63,264 nucleotides of DNA from a virus: positions 1-63,264 of the IMG/VR virus record IMGVR_UViG_3300027763_000002; one strand, written 5' to 3'. The position numbers and the translations under genes are program-made. The notes below the pieces were generated by a model. The model searched no databases. It was not told the origin of the DNA and worked only from the letters and a program-made list of their open reading frames with translations. Below, piece by piece: positions 3,050 to 46,937 of this stretch (position 1 is the stretch's first letter; every line of letters starts with the position of its first letter).

Positions 3050-3961
3050 ATGGCTATTTCACGCGCACAACTTCTGAAGGAACTGCTCCCCGGCCTGAAC
3101 GCTTTGTTCGGTCTGGAGTACAATCGCTACGGCGAGGAACACAAAGAACTTTTCGACATCGAAAGCTCTGAGCGTTCCTTCGAAGAAGAGACCAAGCTGT
3201 CGGGCTTCTCGGCTGCTCCGGTCAAGACCGAAGGTGGTGCTATTGCCTATGATAACGGGCAAGAAGCATTCACCGCTCGATACAACCACGAAACCATCGC
3301 TCTAGGCTTCAGCCTGACCGAAGAAGCCATCGAGGACAACCTCTATGACTCTCTCTCGGCTCGCTACACCAAGGCGCTGGCTCGTGCCATGTCCTATACC
3401 AAGCAGGTCAAGGGCGCTGGCGTTCTGAACAACGGCTTCAACGCTAACTTCGTTGGTGGCGATGGTCAGCCTCTGTTCAGCACCGCGCACCCGCTGGTCT
3501 CTGGCGACGTCAACTCGAACACGCAAGCCACTGTGGCCGACCTGAACGAGACTTCGCTGGAAGCCGCTGTGATCCAGATCGCAGCATGGACTGACGAGCG
3601 TTCGCTCTTGATCGCTGCAAAGCCCAAGAAGCTCATTATCCCACCCGCGCTGATGTTTGTCGCCACCCGCTTGCTGGAAACCAGCCTGCGCGTTGGTACC
3701 ACGGACAACGACATCAACGCCCTGAAGAACAACGGGTCGATCCCTGAGGGTTATGCGGTGAACCACTTCATCACCGACACCAACTCTTGGTACCTGACCA
3801 CGGACGTTCCTAATGGTATGAAGCACTTTGTTCGTACTCCATTGTCAACTGGCATGGACGGCGACTTCGACACCGGAAATGTTCGGTATAAGGCCCGTGA
3901 GCGTTATAGCTTCGGCTGGTCCGATCCTCTGGGTATGTTCGGTTCTCCCGGCGGTTCGTAA
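3050..3961 (+). CDS. Major capsid protein (Mu gpT-like HK97 fold)
   Basis: 303 residues. The G-D-G-Q-P-L-F-S-T-A-H-P block (about 141-152) and the later W-x-T-D-E-R and P-x-x-L-M-F-V-A patterns are typical of the Mu-like gpT/HK97 capsid family. Gly-Ala-rich stretches and an acidic, helical N-terminus agree. It is followed by a perfect GC-rich hairpin with four Ts (3991-4020), as expected for a highly transcribed capsid gene. There is no obvious N-terminal delta domain, which fits a separate scaffold. Confidence 0.85.
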   Translation: MAISRAQLLKELLPGLNALFGLEYNRYGEEHKELFDIESSERSFEEETKLSGFSAAPVKTEGGAIAYDNGQEAFTARYNHETIALGFSLTEEAIEDNLYDSLSARYTKALARAMSYTKQVKGAGVLNNGFNANFVGGDGQPLFSTAHPLVSGDVNSNTQATVADLNETSLEAAVIQIAAWTDERSLLIAAKPKKLIIPPALMFVATRLLETSLRVGTTDNDINALKNNGSIPEGYAVNHFITDTNSWYLTTDVPNGMKHFVRTPLSTGMDGDFDTGNVRYKARERYSFGWSDPLGMFGSPGGS

Positions 3962-3990
3962 TACGATCCACTAGGACTAACGAAATAGAG

Positions 3991-4020
3991 GGGGAAGGGG
4001 TGCAAACCTCTTCCCCTTTT
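3991..4020 (+). terminator. Intrinsic terminator after the capsid gene
   Basis: GGGGAAGGGG (3991-4000) pairs with CCTCTTCCCC (4007-4016), with one G-U pair, around a six-base loop. TTTT follows at 4017-4020. It lies 30 bases after the capsid stop and should stop, or partly stop, rightward transcription. Confidence 0.85.
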
Positions 4021-4061
4021 CTATGGGCTGTGCTAGCTCTTACGTACCTAGTGATAAACCA

Positions 4062-4102
4062 ACCCGCTGACTGTCTAGGCAGACTTCCTCAAGACAGCGG
4101 GT
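4062..4102 (+). promoter_or_regulatory. Structured leader before gene 4121
   Basis: ACCCGCTG (4062-4069) can pair with CAGCGGGT (4095-4102). Inside it, GTCT (4073-4076) can pair with AGAC (4081-4084). Alternatively CTGTCT (4071-4076) can pair with AGACAG (4092-4097), which would exclude the first outer stem in part. It lies between the capsid terminator and the next start codon. It may stabilise or time the downstream message; no protein-binding site is recognised. Confidence 0.45.
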
Positions 4103-4120
4103 GCAGATAGAGGATATGTT

Positions 4121-4624
4121 ATGGGTACTTCAACCTTCTCCGGACCACTGCGTTCGGGTACCGTTCGTTTCGGCACGCTCGCCTCTGGCTTGAACACGGG
4201 TCTTCCCGTCCTGACCCAGACCGCCACCGTGCCTTTCGGCGTGATGCTGACGTCTCCAGCGGCCCAGCGCCTCTTCGTGCTCCCAGCGGGCTCCAAGATT
4301 GTTCGCTTCACCGTCGAGAAGACGGTCGCCATTGCTGGTGGTTCGGTCTCTGCCGTGAACGCCACGTTCGGTACGGCTGGCTCTGCCAACGCCTACTCGA
4401 CCACGCTAGACATCGGTCTGACGACCGCCCAGACGGCTCGCGCCACCTTGGACGCGGCTCTGGTGTCCTCGGCTACTAACAACATCGGTACGGTCGATGT
4501 GCCTGTCTTCGGCACCTTCACGGCTGGTACCGGCAACCCGACCTCGGGTTCGGCTGTTGTGACCATTGAGTACATCCAGCGTCTTGCTAACGGTGCATCT
4601 TCGCCAGCCCCCTCTAACGTCTAA
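4121..4624 (+). CDS. Putative virion structural protein, 167 aa
   Basis: Thr-, Ser-, Ala- and Gly-rich with alternating hydrophobic strands and a flexible Pro-rich C-terminus, as in capsid decoration proteins. No family is recognised. It is the first gene after the capsid terminator and has AGAGGAT upstream of its ATG. Confidence 0.65.
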   Translation: MGTSTFSGPLRSGTVRFGTLASGLNTGLPVLTQTATVPFGVMLTSPAAQRLFVLPAGSKIVRFTVEKTVAIAGGSVSAVNATFGTAGSANAYSTTLDIGLTTAQTARATLDAALVSSATNNIGTVDVPVFGTFTAGTGNPTSGSAVVTIEYIQRLANGASSPAPSNV

Positions 4625-4638
4625 GTTAGGGGTCAGCG

Positions 4639-4926
4639 ATGGCTATGCAAACTGACGTTAAAAATATCCGTGCAACTGCTTCGGCGCAGCTGCTTCCGAC
4701 CAACCAGCGCACTCGTGTGAAGGGGATGATCATCACTTCCTTGGGTACGACGGTAGCATCGGTTCAGCTTAGATCAGGGGGTTCTAGTGGGACTATTCTG
4801 ATTGAACTCGACATGCCCGCTACAGGGGCGTTTCACAGCACGTTAATCCCCGGTGAGGGTGTACTGTTCACCAACGGCGTCTATGCAACATTGACGAACT
4901 GCTACATCTCAATGTTTTACGGGTAA
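4639..4926 (+). CDS. Putative virion structural protein, 95 aa
   Basis: A small beta-rich protein (strands such as GMIITSL, ASVQLRS, TILIELDM). It has no recognised family. It follows gene 4121 by 14 bases and is followed closely by a membrane protein gene, so it belongs to the same head/tail operon. Confidence 0.6.
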   Translation: MAMQTDVKNIRATASAQLLPTNQRTRVKGMIITSLGTTVASVQLRSGGSSGTILIELDMPATGAFHSTLIPGEGVLFTNGVYATLTNCYISMFYG

Positions 4927-4933
4927 GGGCCTC

Positions 4934-5128
4934 ATGGAAGATCATCCCGACATCCTTAAGCCAATGCTAGATGTGTTTTCGATAGCCACTGTAGTAGGGA
5001 CGCTTAGCAATATGTTACCTGCCGCAGCCGCAGCTTTCAGTATCGTGTGGTCGTTAATCCGCATCTATGAGACCAAGACCGTGCAAGGCTGGCTCCATAA
5101 ATGGCGCTCGAACAAGAAGGAAATTTAG
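4934..5128 (+). CDS. Small membrane protein, class II holin-like
   Basis: 64 residues with one hydrophobic region (about 15-43: IATVVGTL, LPAAAAAFSIVWSLI) and a strongly basic tail (HKWRSNKKEI). This resembles T7 gp17.5-type class II holins in size and layout. It is remote from the endolysin, and a second holin candidate lies inside the lysis cassette at 10179, so it could instead be an ejection-related membrane protein. Confidence 0.6.
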   Translation: MEDHPDILKPMLDVFSIATVVGTLSNMLPAAAAAFSIVWSLIRIYETKTVQGWLHKWRSNKKEI

Positions 5129-5129
5129 T

Positions 5130-5483
5130 ATGACCTCTCCAGTGATGCCTGCCCAAACTCTTCCACCTCGCCCTATGCCTGCTGCTGCTGCTCCTGCCCC
5201 TGCTCGCCCTGCAGGCCCTAATCCAGCACAGATGGCCGCTATGGCCGCTGCTCGTAAGCAAGCTATGGGTGGCGTAGGCCCCCGTCGCGCTGAGGGCGGT
5301 CCAGTCAAAGCCAAGAAGTACGCTAAGGGTGGGGCTATCTCCACTGGCGGCTCCAAGGGCACGACGATGAAGACCACCGTCAAACGTCAGTTTACGCTGG
5401 CTAAGGCCAAGGGTTCGCCCAGTGCAGCTAGCCGTGGTGATGGTTGCGCCCAGCGGGGTCGCACGAAGGCTAAGATTGTCTAA
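5130..5483 (+). CDS. Small basic protein with YAKGG motif
   Basis: 117 residues from the ATG one base after the previous stop; a longer frame upstream is not needed. It has a Pro/Ala-rich N-terminus, then KKYAKGGAIS, and ends RGDGCAQRGRTKAKIV. Very Lys/Arg rich and low complexity. It is one of a run of related small basic proteins between 5130 and 8331. They may be internal DNA-associated or cement proteins; function is unknown. Confidence 0.7.
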   Translation: MTSPVMPAQTLPPRPMPAAAAPAPARPAGPNPAQMAAMAAARKQAMGGVGPRRAEGGPVKAKKYAKGGAISTGGSKGTTMKTTVKRQFTLAKAKGSPSAASRGDGCAQRGRTKAKIV

Positions 5484-5737
5484 TGGCTAAGTCTCCTGCT
5501 TGGACGCGCAAAGAAGGGAAGAACCCTAAGGGCGGCTTGAACGCCAAGGGTCGAGCTTCTTACAATAAGGCCAACCCCGGCAAGCCGGGGCTGAAGGCTC
5601 CGCAGCCTGAGGGTGGCTCCCGTAAGAAGTCCTTCTGTGCGCGGATGAGCGGTATGAAGAAGAAATTGACGAGTGCTAAGACCGCTAATGACCCGAATAG
5701 CCGGATCAATAAGTCTTTGAGAGCATGGAAGTGTTGA
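5483..5737 (+). CDS. Small basic protein, 84 aa
   Basis: Lys/Gly/Asn-rich, starting MAKSPAWTRKEGKNPKGGLN, a pattern seen in DNA-binding or internal phage head proteins. It overlaps the previous stop by one base. A C-terminal SGMKKKLTS segment precedes a short helix. Function is unknown; it is part of the basic-protein group. Confidence 0.65.
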   Translation: MAKSPAWTRKEGKNPKGGLNAKGRASYNKANPGKPGLKAPQPEGGSRKKSFCARMSGMKKKLTSAKTANDPNSRINKSLRAWKC

Positions 5738-42547: not shown

Positions 42548-43108
42548 CTACCTTCCTAGGAGTTTGTTGAAAGCGGTACCCCATGTGGTACCCGTGCCGC
42601 CGTTTGTGATAGTGCCGCTGGTAGGGGGAGCTTGGATGTAGAGGCTTGGATCGTTGTAGAGTTGCTGGCTCTGAGCCGAGCCCCCAAGCTGGCTTTGCAT
42701 AAGGGCGCTCTGCTGAGCCCCTTGAAGTGAGTTCTGCATGTTGCGGCTCTGAGCCAGATAGGCGTCATGGTCCAGCTTGGTCCACGTGTAGCCGTCCCGT
42801 GTGGCTGCTAGTACTTGGCCAGCGGTAAGACCTTGTGCGTACAGCTTGGAGGCGCGGTACTTCTCGTCTTCAGCCTCCTTCGGCTCGTTGGACTTCAGGA
42901 TGGTCTGCATGAGGTTCTGGTGATAGCGACCTAGGAGTATTTCGCGCTCTGCTGCACGGACTGCCGCCAGCTCCTCGTCGGTGAGGAAGGTCTTCACCCT
43001 GTCGATCTCCTCGCTCTCATATTCTGGATGGTACTCATCAGGGTTTGACTTCATGCGGGCCAGCAGCAGCCGCACATAGGGGTGGAATTCTTCGGGCTCG
43101 TCGCTCAC
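42548..43108 (-). CDS. Hypothetical protein, 186 aa
   Basis: GTG start overlapping the upstream stop. Acidic N-terminus, charged helices (TDEELAAVRAAEREILLGRY), then a Gln/Ser/Gly-rich tail ending FNKLLGR. The tail looks more like a virion linker than an enzyme. Function unknown. Confidence 0.6.
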   Translation of the reverse strand: MSDEPEEFHPYVRLLLARMKSNPDEYHPEYESEEIDRVKTFLTDEELAAVRAAEREILLGRYHQNLMQTILKSNEPKEAEDEKYRASKLYAQGLTAGQVLAATRDGYTWTKLDHDAYLAQSRNMQNSLQGAQQSALMQSQLGGSAQSQQLYNDPSLYIQAPPTSGTITNGGTGTTWGTAFNKLLGR

Positions 43109-43635
43109 TTAAATGCTCCTTCAATAGTCTGTAGCTCGCGGCTTTCGAGCCAATCGATAAGCTGCCAACCTGTGATAAACGTATTTAATTTTTCCGTTCG
43201 AGGGCTGGGTATTAAAATTGTTGCAATATTACCCGCCACAATCTCACGTTTTATTACCGTTACTGATATCCCGAGAGCATCAGCTGCATTGTTAGGTGTA
43301 TAGAGAAGTGCAAAATGCAGCGTTCGGTGGGTTAGCTTTGTACGCGCCTGTTCGGCATGAAGTTCTGTCACTCTAACTAGTTTTGAGGTTTTCTCAGGCT
43401 TGCGTAGCCTGATGTTATAAAGGGGGTTCTCCTCTCGCACTGCTTTGGCTTCTGCCGCCATCGCATCTTTACGGGTGGGTAGATAATTAATGGTTATGTT
43501 AGCAATTTCTTTCGTCCATCCTGATAACGCGGCATGCTCTTTGGTACGGAGAAGAGGGCGAAAGCTAATACCTACGTAGAGCAATTCCCCCTGAGCATTG
43601 AAGTGTCGGTATAAGGCGCACTGTTCTTCGCTCAC
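43105..43635 (-). CDS. GIY-YIG nuclease with C-terminal HTH
   Basis: 176 residues from GTG 43635. The GIY-YIG core is visible: ALYRHFNAQGELLYVGIS, R/K-EH near 30-34, an AE pair near 62 and PLYN at 71-74. A C-terminal region (NNAADALGISVTVIKREIV) looks like a DNA-binding HTH. The gene is visibly more AT-rich than its neighbours, suggesting recent acquisition. It could be a free-standing homing endonuclease. Confidence 0.8.
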   Translation of the reverse strand: MSEEQCALYRHFNAQGELLYVGISFRPLLRTKEHAALSGWTKEIANITINYLPTRKDAMAAEAKAVREENPLYNIRLRKPEKTSKLVRVTELHAEQARTKLTHRTLHFALLYTPNNAADALGISVTVIKREIVAGNIATILIPSPRTEKLNTFITGWQLIDWLESRELQTIEGAFK

Positions 43636-44074: not shown

Positions 44075-44256
44075 TCTTCTCCATCCTCCCAGCCATCTAC
44101 AATTCTCTGTAGTGTCTCGCGCACCACCTCTCTCGAGCGTGGGTCATCCTCTACGCCTTTGACCCACATCTCAATCCGGTCATCCCAATAGTGTGTGATG
44201 ATGAGCTCGTAGGTGACAGGTTGGCGGTGGTCAGCGAGGTTAATGACGTCACTCAT
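44071..44256 (-). CDS. Hypothetical protein, 61 aa
   Basis: Start ATG 44256 overlaps the DNA polymerase stop (TGATG). Sequence MSDVINLADHRQPVTYELII, acidic end (DGWEDGEE). Small alpha/beta protein of unknown role, coupled to polymerase translation. Confidence 0.65.
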   Translation of the reverse strand: MSDVINLADHRQPVTYELIITHYWDDRIEMWVKGVEDDPRSREVVRETLQRIVDGWEDGEE

Positions 44257-46937
44257 CAGCACTCTCCATAGCTGAAGCCGTTCCCTGCCTCACAGGCTAG
44301 GGGTAGCTCTGGTGCCCACGTGGGGCGGGTTTGCATGCACTGCTCGACATAGGCCTGAGCCTCGTCGATCTCCTCTTGGGGTGCGATGATGGCGATGGCG
44401 TCGTGGACGGTCATGACGGGGCGGTAGCGCTTAGCGACCAAGAGCATCTGCTCCCCGATGACGATGCGGGCGAGAGCCTGACAGACGTTCTCGATGACCT
44501 TGCCTCCGTATATCCGGTTAGGGATAACGGTACGGCCCTTGAGTGTGTCGTAGACGAACTGCGGCCTATCCCCCTCTTCGAGCTCGACCCAGCGTAGGCC
44601 GGGGTAGCGGACATAGAGATTGTTCGGCAGCCGGATGCCCATCATGTTAACCACCAGTGCCCCCGGTCTGCCAAGGTCGGTCGTGCGACCCCCAAGGATA
44701 GCCTCAAGGGCTTTCTTCCCGTCGTTCCAGAGCTCGGGTATCCGTGGGTAGGTCTCTCGGTAGGTGCTTATGATCCGCTCCGCCTCATCGAGCGTAATGT
44801 CCACGGAAGGCGTAGCGTTCTTCAGCGCCAGCTTGAACTTGGTCGGACCCATCCCATAGCCGCAGTTATGGACAATAATCGCCCCTGCATCGGTCGCAAC
44901 CGTGTATCTGTTCCTCGGCCCTGCGTAAGCGATATCGTAGGTCAGCGATTTCTGTCTGCATTGCTCGGGCGGTGCGTTTATTACGAGCATTTTCGCTACG
45001 TGTAGCAAAGCGGAGGTTACCCGGCTCATACCCTTTAGAGTTGTCCACCCTATCGAGGTCACGTTTGGCGTCTTCCCACCCGTCAAGGGAGATAAGGTAC
45101 TGGAGAAACGCCCCTCGGTCTGTGCGCCATGCGTCATGGACAAAGATACCCCTACCTCCGTAATCGGGATATGTTTTCGATTTAGGGTTATGACAGCGTC
45201 CGATACAGCTCGCGATACGGTTAAGAAGGCGTTGGCGATGTTCGAGGTCAGGAACGATAGCCTCGTACCCCCAATATTTCTTCCGTGTTGCAGACGACGC
45301 ACCTTTTGCGCATTCGTTGCATCTTGTGGTGCGCCCCGCTTTGAAATTGTACCGGTCCACAAGCCCTTCCCAGCTACAGGAGCAACGAACCACGGGGTGC
45401 CACCCAGAGGATCGACCTGTTGATTTGTGGTGCTGCTCCCAACGAACGACTTCCAACTCGCCCTGTCGATAGCCGACCGGAAAAGGGAAGGGTTTGTAAC
45501 TACCTCGGACCACTCCCGCCACCCATGTTCCGTTAGAATTTCGTGGTCCGGCGTGGCGGTTAGCCCCCGTGCCGTCAACACTTCCTTCTCCCCCTGCGGG
45601 ACTACTCCCTCGTGATTTACCCATTCTTCACCGTCCCATAACATATCCATAGCTTGTACTTCGACTATGCACTTCCAACCACTGTCGGTCAACACTTTTG
45701 TACCGGGACCAAAACAACCTAGTATAGTTGTTTTGCCTACGAACCGCTCGTCCTTCGTGATATCCTTGGGGTCCTTGCCGTAGATACTGCTGGCCATGAT
45801 CCGGTACACGTCTTCCTTGCGGTCGAACGCATCGACTAGATCATCCTGCTGCGCTAGCCATGCCAACGTACGGGCTTCGATCTGACTGCTGTCGCTGTCC
45901 ACCATCATGAACCCTTCGGGGGCCATCATGGCGCTCTTGAGTGGGGAGGAGCGTTGCAGGTTCTGGAGGTTAATCTTGTCGTCGCCGCCCCAGCGTCCCG
46001 TGTGCGCCGCATAGTAGCGTAGGGGTACGGGGAGTGAACCTCGCCCTGAGATGCCAATGAACCGCTCGGTGCGGGTCTCCTCGAGGGTGCTCTTCACGCC
46101 CAGCCGCGCAGCGACGATGGCTTGCACGGTGGGGTCGGGGTGGTCCAGCAGGGCGGTGAACTCTTCGTCGTTCTTCGCGAAAGCATAGGTCTGCTTCTGC
46201 GTAGTCGGGCTCACCTTCATAGGCGGGGTTACACCCAAGGAACCTAGCACAGAGGCTAGCTTTGGGTTGGACATCAGGTCCTCGATCTCCAGCGACATGC
46301 TATCCATGAGCTTCTGCTTACGGGCTAGCACGTTAGAGAGATGCTCCTCCAGCCGCTCGTGGTCCAGCTCCAACACAGGCTCGGTGAACATGCGGATGGT
46401 CAAGTCGATCAGCTTCAACTCCATGAGAGGGAAGCCCACGGCCAGCACATCGAACAGCTTACGGGTCAGCTCTGTGTCATTGCAGCAGTAGCGCCCATAG
46501 GCCGCGAGTTGGTCAGCCCCAAAGTCCCTGCGCCTCATGTTGAACGCTTGGACGACCTCGGTGCCCTTCTCGCCTAGGCCGAAGTGCTGAACCAGCTTGG
46601 CTAGGCTTACCCCTGTCATAGAACCTACAACAGCTCGCGCCATGGAAAGAGTATCTGCAATACGCTTGGGTCTTATGTCAAAATGCCAGTTCAAAATTGA
46701 CATATCGAAGACGGCATTGTGAGCAATGCAGAGGTGCTTATCCATCTCGAAGCTATCGAGGAAGGCTTTGGTCGCGAGCTTGGTCCCGCTGAACCAAACA
46801 GCATCCTCGTCGTTGACCTTCACACTCACCCCGATCACCTCGAACCGAGGATCGCGTATGTATTCTTCAGTAGTCATAGTTGAGAGGCTGTAATTGGTGC
46901 CGTAGAGCGTTTCAAAGTCGAGGGTGATGATGTTCAT
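44256..46937 (-). CDS. Family A DNA polymerase with 3'-5' exonuclease, interrupted by an intein
   Basis: 893 residues as translated, 609 after splicing. Exonuclease motifs: D7/E9 (LDFET), HNAVFD (D78) and Y150-CCND154. Polymerase motif A is DSDSSQIEAR from D347; motif B begins R398-FVG-K402-TTILG and is cut by the intein before C-GYG; motif C is VHD (H845, D846). The short length, no 5' nuclease, is usual for phage replicative PolA. Start overlaps the upstream stop (ATGA). Active enzyme requires intein removal because motif B forms the nucleotide-binding O-helix. Confidence 0.95.
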   Translation of the reverse strand: MNIITLDFETLYGTNYSLSTMTTEEYIRDPRFEVIGVSVKVNDEDAVWFSGTKLATKAFLDSFEMDKHLCIAHNAVFDMSILNWHFDIRPKRIADTLSMARAVVGSMTGVSLAKLVQHFGLGEKGTEVVQAFNMRRRDFGADQLAAYGRYCCNDTELTRKLFDVLAVGFPLMELKLIDLTIRMFTEPVLELDHERLEEHLSNVLARKQKLMDSMSLEIEDLMSNPKLASVLGSLGVTPPMKVSPTTQKQTYAFAKNDEEFTALLDHPDPTVQAIVAARLGVKSTLEETRTERFIGISGRGSLPVPLRYYAAHTGRWGGDDKINLQNLQRSSPLKSAMMAPEGFMMVDSDSSQIEARTLAWLAQQDDLVDAFDRKEDVYRIMASSIYGKDPKDITKDERFVGKTTILGCFGPGTKVLTDSGWKCIVEVQAMDMLWDGEEWVNHEGVVPQGEKEVLTARGLTATPDHEILTEHGWREWSEVVTNPSLFRSAIDRASWKSFVGSSTTNQQVDPLGGTPWFVAPVAGKGLWTGTISKRGAPQDATNAQKVRRLQHGRNIGGTRLSFLTSNIANAFLTVSRAVSDAVITLNRKHIPITEVGVSLSMTHGAQTEGRFSSTLSPLTGGKTPNVTSIGWTTLKGMSRVTSALLHVAKMLVINAPPEQCRQKSLTYDIAYAGPRNRYTVATDAGAIIVHNCGYGMGPTKFKLALKNATPSVDITLDEAERIISTYRETYPRIPELWNDGKKALEAILGGRTTDLGRPGALVVNMMGIRLPNNLYVRYPGLRWVELEEGDRPQFVYDTLKGRTVIPNRIYGGKVIENVCQALARIVIGEQMLLVAKRYRPVMTVHDAIAIIAPQEEIDEAQAYVEQCMQTRPTWAPELPLACEAGNGFSYGEC
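44865..45716 (-). other. Intein in DNA polymerase motif B, 284 residues
   Basis: Residues 408-691 of the precursor. Splice block A starts C1-FGPGTKVLTDSGW; block B is GLTATPDHEIL with T55 and H58; block F is YDIAYAGPRNRYTV; block G is IIVH283-N284 followed by extein Cys+1. All class 1 splicing residues are present, so it should splice. No LAGLIDADG or in-frame HNH motif lies between the blocks; instead the middle is the alternate-frame shadow of an HNH gene. Confidence 0.95.
44866..45624 (-). CDS. HNH homing endonuclease nested out of frame inside the intein
   Basis: 252 residues on the same strand as polA but in another frame. Zinc-type cysteines: C81/C83 and C102/C105. The nuclease core reads RLLNRIASCIGRCHNPKSKT, then DYGGRGI, then LDRVDN (190-195) and GNLRFATRSENARNK (202-216), a standard phage HNH signature. 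Its ATG lies 92 bases inside the intein and its TAA ends one base before the intein end. GGTGA precedes the ATG closely; a GTG at codon 35 is an alternative start. Predicted to cut intein-free polA alleles. Confidence 0.9.
   Translation of the reverse strand: MGKSRGSSPAGGEGSVDGTGANRHAGPRNSNGTWVAGVVRGSYKPFPFPVGYRQGELEVVRWEQHHKSTGRSSGWHPVVRCSCSWEGLVDRYNFKAGRTTRCNECAKGASSATRKKYWGYEAIVPDLEHRQRLLNRIASCIGRCHNPKSKTYPDYGGRGIFVHDAWRTDRGAFLQYLISLDGWEDAKRDLDRVDNSKGYEPGNLRFATRSENARNKRTARAMQTEIADLRYRLRRAEEQIHGCDRCRGDYCP

Follow-up and report, generated by a model that had tools for sequence, protein, structure and literature searches.

Can an intein acquire its homing endonuclease not as a domain of its own polypeptide but as a second gene read in another frame? 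The question is raised by the polA gene of a phage in the IMG/VR virus record IMGVR_UViG_3300027763_000002, of which we analysed the whole stretch from position 1 to 63,264 (63,264 nucleotides, hereafter the window). An earlier note, made from the sequence alone, reported that the intein in this gene keeps all splicing blocks and carries a complete HNH endonuclease gene out of frame. That observation is confirmed to the base, whereas the reading built on it, that 759 bases code for two proteins, is only partly supported and needs trimming.

The polA intein and the overlapping reading frame

The polA precursor (44256-46937, minus strand, as are all features of the locus) is a family A DNA polymerase with a 3'-5' exonuclease domain (Pfam DNA_pol_A, E 4.5e-26; PHROG_17, E 1.7e-78), interrupted in motif B by an intein of 284 residues (44865-45716, precursor residues 408-691; GKTTILG/C...HN/CGYGMG, with slashes at the junctions). 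The intein has Cys1, TPDH in block B, YD..AGP with YD in block F, and VHN/C in block G. In 42 aligned homologues the splicing residues are invariant or nearly so: C1, T55, H58, and N284 are invariant and H283 is present in at least 90%, and the residue at +1 is Cys or Ser in all listed flanks. A profile comparison matched Mtu RecA intein structures (E 5e-5), and a Foldseek search with the predicted structure matched the Ssp DnaB, gp41-1, and Mtu RecA inteins (probability 1.0, best E 2.2e-4), so that a Hint-type fold is predicted for the two splicing halves. Introns with out-of-frame HNH reading frames are common in phages, and the insertion could in principle be a self-splicing intron with an accidentally open polA frame, but no Rfam intron matched at E up to 1, and the invariant protein-splicing residues, the Hint-like fold prediction, and the intein-frame constraint at both ends described below make this very unlikely.

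In the +2 frame of the intein lies a 252-codon reading frame (44866-45624) that starts 92 nt inside the intein and ends 1 nt before its end. Its proposed start codon, ATG (45622-45624), is formed out of the intein codons GA[A TG]G, encoding EW, it is preceded by a Shine-Dalgarno-like GGTGA (45628-45632), and its stop, TAA (44866-44868), is hidden in the terminal His-Asn codons of the intein, CA[TAA]C; a stop at this position is present in 42 of 60 lineages. Residues 51-225 match PHROG families annotated as HNH endonucleases (PHROG_374, E 4e-28), and the core belongs with PHROG_374, 3377, 2081, and 8790. Just downstream of polA, the region 43105-43635 (minus strand) gives a weak GIY-YIG nuclease match together with a helix-turn-helix match and is possibly another phage endonuclease.

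Conservation of the nesting among phage inteins

The earlier note estimated the chance of such an overlap as roughly (61/64)^252, which is too simple. With the nuclease protein fixed and local codon usage applied, an open intein frame across the core has a probability of about 0.01 per lineage on average and 0.0075 for the window element, and 3 of 70 free-standing homologues happen to have that frame open, although as a group these homologues, which are not overlapped, have 3.7 stops per 100 codons in the frame that the intein would use. The conclusion that the overlap is not due to chance stands because of conservation. A tblastn search with the nuclease reading frame hit polA genes of Salmonella, E. 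coli, Pseudomonas, and Vibrio phages from its first residue, and the same layout is seen in diverged exteins in Salmonella phage SETP3, E. coli phage fPoEco01, Pseudomonas phage MR14, Vibrio phage 97.13, and EBPR siphovirus 2. A scan of IMG/VR with an alignment of these reading frames returned 80 loci, and in every one with intact ends the intein N and C halves lie in one open frame and the nuclease lies in +2; bacterial contigs add more. Together these sources hold 95 inteins with this nesting, 92 of them in the same +2 frame. Counting distinct copies of this first set, 85 embedded nucleases (82 in +2 and three in +1) have 0 intein-frame stops in 19,688 codons against 1,439 in the unused frame.

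Two further scans with related nucleases gave a second class of 80 distinct inteins with the nuclease in +1, with 0 intein-frame stops in 15,093 codons against 860 in the unused frame. These lie at other polA sites (for example, YGGKLxEN/C) and, judged by flank sequence only, in helicase-like genes. The nucleases of the two classes are related (hhalign probability 99.5), and one polA (locus L044 of our collection, 3409-4275 and 4654-5580) carries two inteins at different sites, one with the nuclease in +2 and the other in +1. Not one of the 175 copies has the nuclease in frame, although the search is blind to frame, and no intein-frame stop occurs in about 34,800 overlapped codons. Here "embedded" was defined by both halves being in one open reading frame, which could bias the count, but in the first set no locus with both halves failed this criterion. 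The nesting is therefore not unique to the window but the rule in a large family.

These comparisons also bear on whether the nuclease could really be in frame with the intein and have been displaced by a sequencing or assembly error, an outcome that had been named beforehand as one that would overturn the observation. Such errors or indels do occur in this gene: in an old GenBank record of phage SS3e (AY730274.2, 2373-3179), indels split polA into three open reading frames and fuse the intein N half in frame to the nuclease, which looks like sequencing error but is the only in-frame example seen. However, none of the 175 copies, which come from independent data sets, is in frame, and phage genomes sequenced by different groups agree, so that a frame error is refuted by the homologues. 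One scaffold labelled Taishania pollutisoli carries a Jersey-type phage polA, 92-97% identical to that of SETP3, in a Bacteroidota assembly, and probably reflects contamination or misbinning.

Partition of constraint between the two frames

The 759 bases are not doubly constrained throughout. In 19 independent pairs of +2 elements, the differences per site at nuclease codon positions 1/2/3 (intein positions 3/1/2) are.191/.104/.102 in residues 2-45 of the nuclease reading frame,.131/.083/.339 in the core (residues 50-224, 44953-45477), and.215/.086/.076 in residues 226-250. In the N-terminal segment the differences concentrate at the intein wobble position, whereas in the core the rate at intein codon position 2 (0.34) is the highest of the three. 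The switch is sharp in sliding windows, falling at the borders of the nuclease core, and the +1 class gives the same picture with the other phase. The first ~45 and last ~25 codons of the overlap evolve as intein and the ~175-codon core evolves as nuclease, under purifying selection in the nuclease frame, while the intein-frame reading of the core is free to change except for stops.

Structure prediction agrees with this partition. In AlphaFold2 models, made without sequences from the GenBank phage collection, the N-terminal splicing half (45450-45716, intein residues 1-89, blocks A and B; pLDDT ~97 over residues 1-80) and the C-terminal splicing half (44865-44969, residues 250-284, blocks F and G; pLDDT ~95) are confident, with pLDDT above 95 in most blocks, whereas the intein-frame linker between them (44970-45449, residues 90-249) is predicted to be disordered (pLDDT ~30 over residues 90-248). 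Conversely, residues ~45-240 of the nuclease are confident, with pLDDT above 90 in most of this range, and residues 1-40 are not.

A further possibility is that the overlap is a relic, a dead nuclease insertion tolerated because it happens to be open in the intein frame. The nuclease reading frame is conserved in 92 of 92 +2 homologues, two of which (loci L038 and L053) have one stop in the nuclease frame while the intein stays open, so the nuclease is dispensable for splicing, itself inferred from sequence. The intein of L038 is nearly identical to that of locus L036 (5 differences in 855 nt), and one difference puts the stop in the nuclease frame, a recent nuclease loss. However, only two of the 92 copies are broken, and the purifying selection on the core, the maintained initiation signals, and the recent transfer between phage genera described below argue against a relic, which we consider unlikely.

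Initiation signals for the nuclease frame

Over 61 lineages under 80% DNA identity, the best start plus Shine-Dalgarno in the nuclease frame beats synonymous recodings of the intein (median p 0.027, Fisher p about 1e-40), with ATG as the best start in 54 lineages and GTG in 7, and the anti-Shine-Dalgarno score of the window copy is better than that of synonymous recodings with p = 0.007. The lineages have arrived at different solutions, with starts at nt 77, 92, 98, 116, 134, and 137. Part of this signal is the requirement that the frame be open at all, and the lineages used in the combined p-values are related. Alternatively, the nuclease could be made as a fusion by programmed -1 ribosomal frameshifting from the intein frame, since the nuclease frame is the -1 frame of the intein, its first ~45 codons are not conserved as protein, and the SS3e record reads as an intein-N/nuclease fusion through an indel. 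However, slippery heptamers in phase are not convincingly enriched (8 observed against 4.4 expected over 60 lineages), the internal start and Shine-Dalgarno signals are strongly conserved and have re-arisen at different positions, and the second class uses the +1 frame, so that frameshifting appears unlikely. Internal initiation is the best explanation, and the nuclease is probably a separately translated protein, although this is inferred from sequence.

Evidence for mobility

Of 401 phage records matching SETP3 polA, 151 cover at least 80% of the intein-containing gene, and others such as ST4 and S111 match about 70% in two pieces and have a precise empty site. The intein is 97.2% identical between SETP3 and fPoEco01 while the polA parts further from the insertion are 75.5 and 88.5% identical, and it is 82.8% identical against 62-64% between SETP3 and Dhillonvirus Pubbukkers. 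Intein-plus and intein-minus Jersey-type alleles are about 95% identical overall but only 72-75% in the 60 nt just upstream of the insertion, the footprint of co-conversion. The evidence for movement into empty alleles is indirect and comprises alleles with and without the intein, intergeneric transfer, and co-converted flanks.

The nuclease superfamily

"HNH" is here a family label from PHROG. The usual catalytic His position of HNH enzymes (D-H) holds Arg (D191-R192) in all 94 embedded copies with a residue there, and Arg is likewise found in all 71 free homologues scored, so that this superfamily (motif D-R-I-D-N..Y-x-P-x-N-C-R-W in the free-standing homologues) lacks the canonical His throughout, and its active site seems not to be defined. 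Pfam and PDB sequence searches with the nuclease gave no usable match. The predicted model contains a strand at 189-192, a strand at 204-207, and a helix at 209-214, but a Foldseek search of the PDB gave no confident nuclease match, the best being 4h9d at E 0.43. Its catalytic mechanism is unproven on present evidence, and DNA cleavage by the protein is inferred.

Relation to known systems

The closest precedent is the ShiLan domain, a hidden HNH insertion in mycobacteriophage DNA methylases (Arsenault, Gosselin, and Gogarten, 2025; PMC11855218), in which, as here, an HNH-type reading frame lies out of frame in a host reading frame that stays open. According to its authors, who left its translation as an open question, the ShiLan insertion has no protein-splicing domains, so the peptide stays in the host protein, whereas the element described here is a Hint-type intein by sequence and predicted fold at a catalytic motif of polA. 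Because the ShiLan insertion also ends in TAAC we considered whether it is a degenerate intein of this kind, but on JN020143 its methylase frame shows none of the intein blocks. The earlier note knew of no described case; an out-of-frame HNH insertion has been published, though not inside an intein. Literature searches for an out-of-frame endonuclease inside an intein found only the ShiLan paper and one genome announcement reporting the same kind of methylase insertion, and no open-access paper describing such an enzyme inside a splicing-type intein. A 2025 preprint on actinobacteriophage inteins of non-canonical architecture (Gosselin, Arsenault, and Gogarten; bioRxiv 10.1101/2025.01.02.630785), cited in PMC11855218 beside the statement that overlapping frames occur in actinophages, may report related cases.

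In bifunctional inteins such as PI-SceI and the helicase intein of phage Ent3, the element is likewise a mobile intein with an endonuclease between two splicing halves, but there the endonuclease is part of the intein polypeptide, whereas here it is a separate overlapping gene. The GenBank record of Ent3 annotates its polA intein, which is of the overlapping kind, only as "encoding splicing domains" and its helicase intein as LAGLIDADG. In split inteins with a free-standing endonuclease gene between the halves, reportedly described as "fractured genes" (Dassa et al., 2009), the endonuclease is expressed separately from the intein halves, as is inferred here, whereas in the element studied the intein is one continuous polypeptide overlapped by the nuclease gene. 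Several of our loci have the split layout with the same nuclease superfamily: in loci L008, L053, L058, and L070 (first intein), and in ten others from the further scans (L225, L240, and L253-L260), the N and C halves are in different open reading frames, with a related nuclease open reading frame overlapping or lying between them. In L008 and L070 the insertion was checked by eye to be in polA, and locus L055 has the unsplit version at the same polA site.

A model for overlapping-gene inteins

We consider it likely that the polA insertion is a mobile intein whose homing endonuclease is an overlapping gene instead of a domain of the intein. In this view, ribosomes on the polA frame would make a precursor in which the two intein halves fold together around a ~160-residue disordered loop, splice out, and leave a functional polymerase, while a second initiation at the internal ATG would give a separate HNH-superfamily nuclease. 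The nuclease would cut intein-less polA alleles in motif B, and repair from the intein-plus allele would copy in the whole cassette with some flank. The architecture, its conservation, the frame-partitioned selection, the conserved initiation signals, the alleles with and without the intein, and the co-converted flanks are established here from sequence, whereas splicing, separate translation, DNA cleavage, and its target are inferred. The earlier note was right that a splicing-type intein and a separate HNH-family gene share one strand out of frame and that separate expression is likely, but its probability argument needs correction and its reading of two proteins over 759 bases needs trimming. 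The origin of the arrangement is also inferred: a complete HNH gene with its own start and stop may have entered the linker of a small intein, and such a gene would persist only out of frame, where its stop does not truncate the host protein.

More broadly, and with somewhat less confidence though still more likely than not, overlapping-gene inteins may be a third, widespread mode of intein-endonuclease association, beside the fused and the split or free-standing modes. In this reading the endonuclease enters as a complete gene, survives only out of frame, is expressed from its own ribosome-binding site inside the intein, has nested in two different frames and several host genes, and can pass into split inteins when the intein-frame linker acquires a stop, as suggested by the intact L055 and the split L008, L053, L058, and L070 at the same polA site.

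Homing endonuclease and intein are textbook partners in one polypeptide, yet at least 175 phage inteins, including those of much-sequenced Salmonella and E. coli phages in which the arrangement apparently went unnoticed, appear to hold the endonuclease as an overlapping gene. This would explain how apparent no-endonuclease inteins keep moving, would offer a route by which free-standing endonuclease genes recruit inteins, and would provide a link to the origin of natural split inteins. Surveys that read only the host frame will miss such enzymes. The locus is also a clean natural case of a long same-strand overlap in which selection is partitioned, with one frame reduced to staying open.
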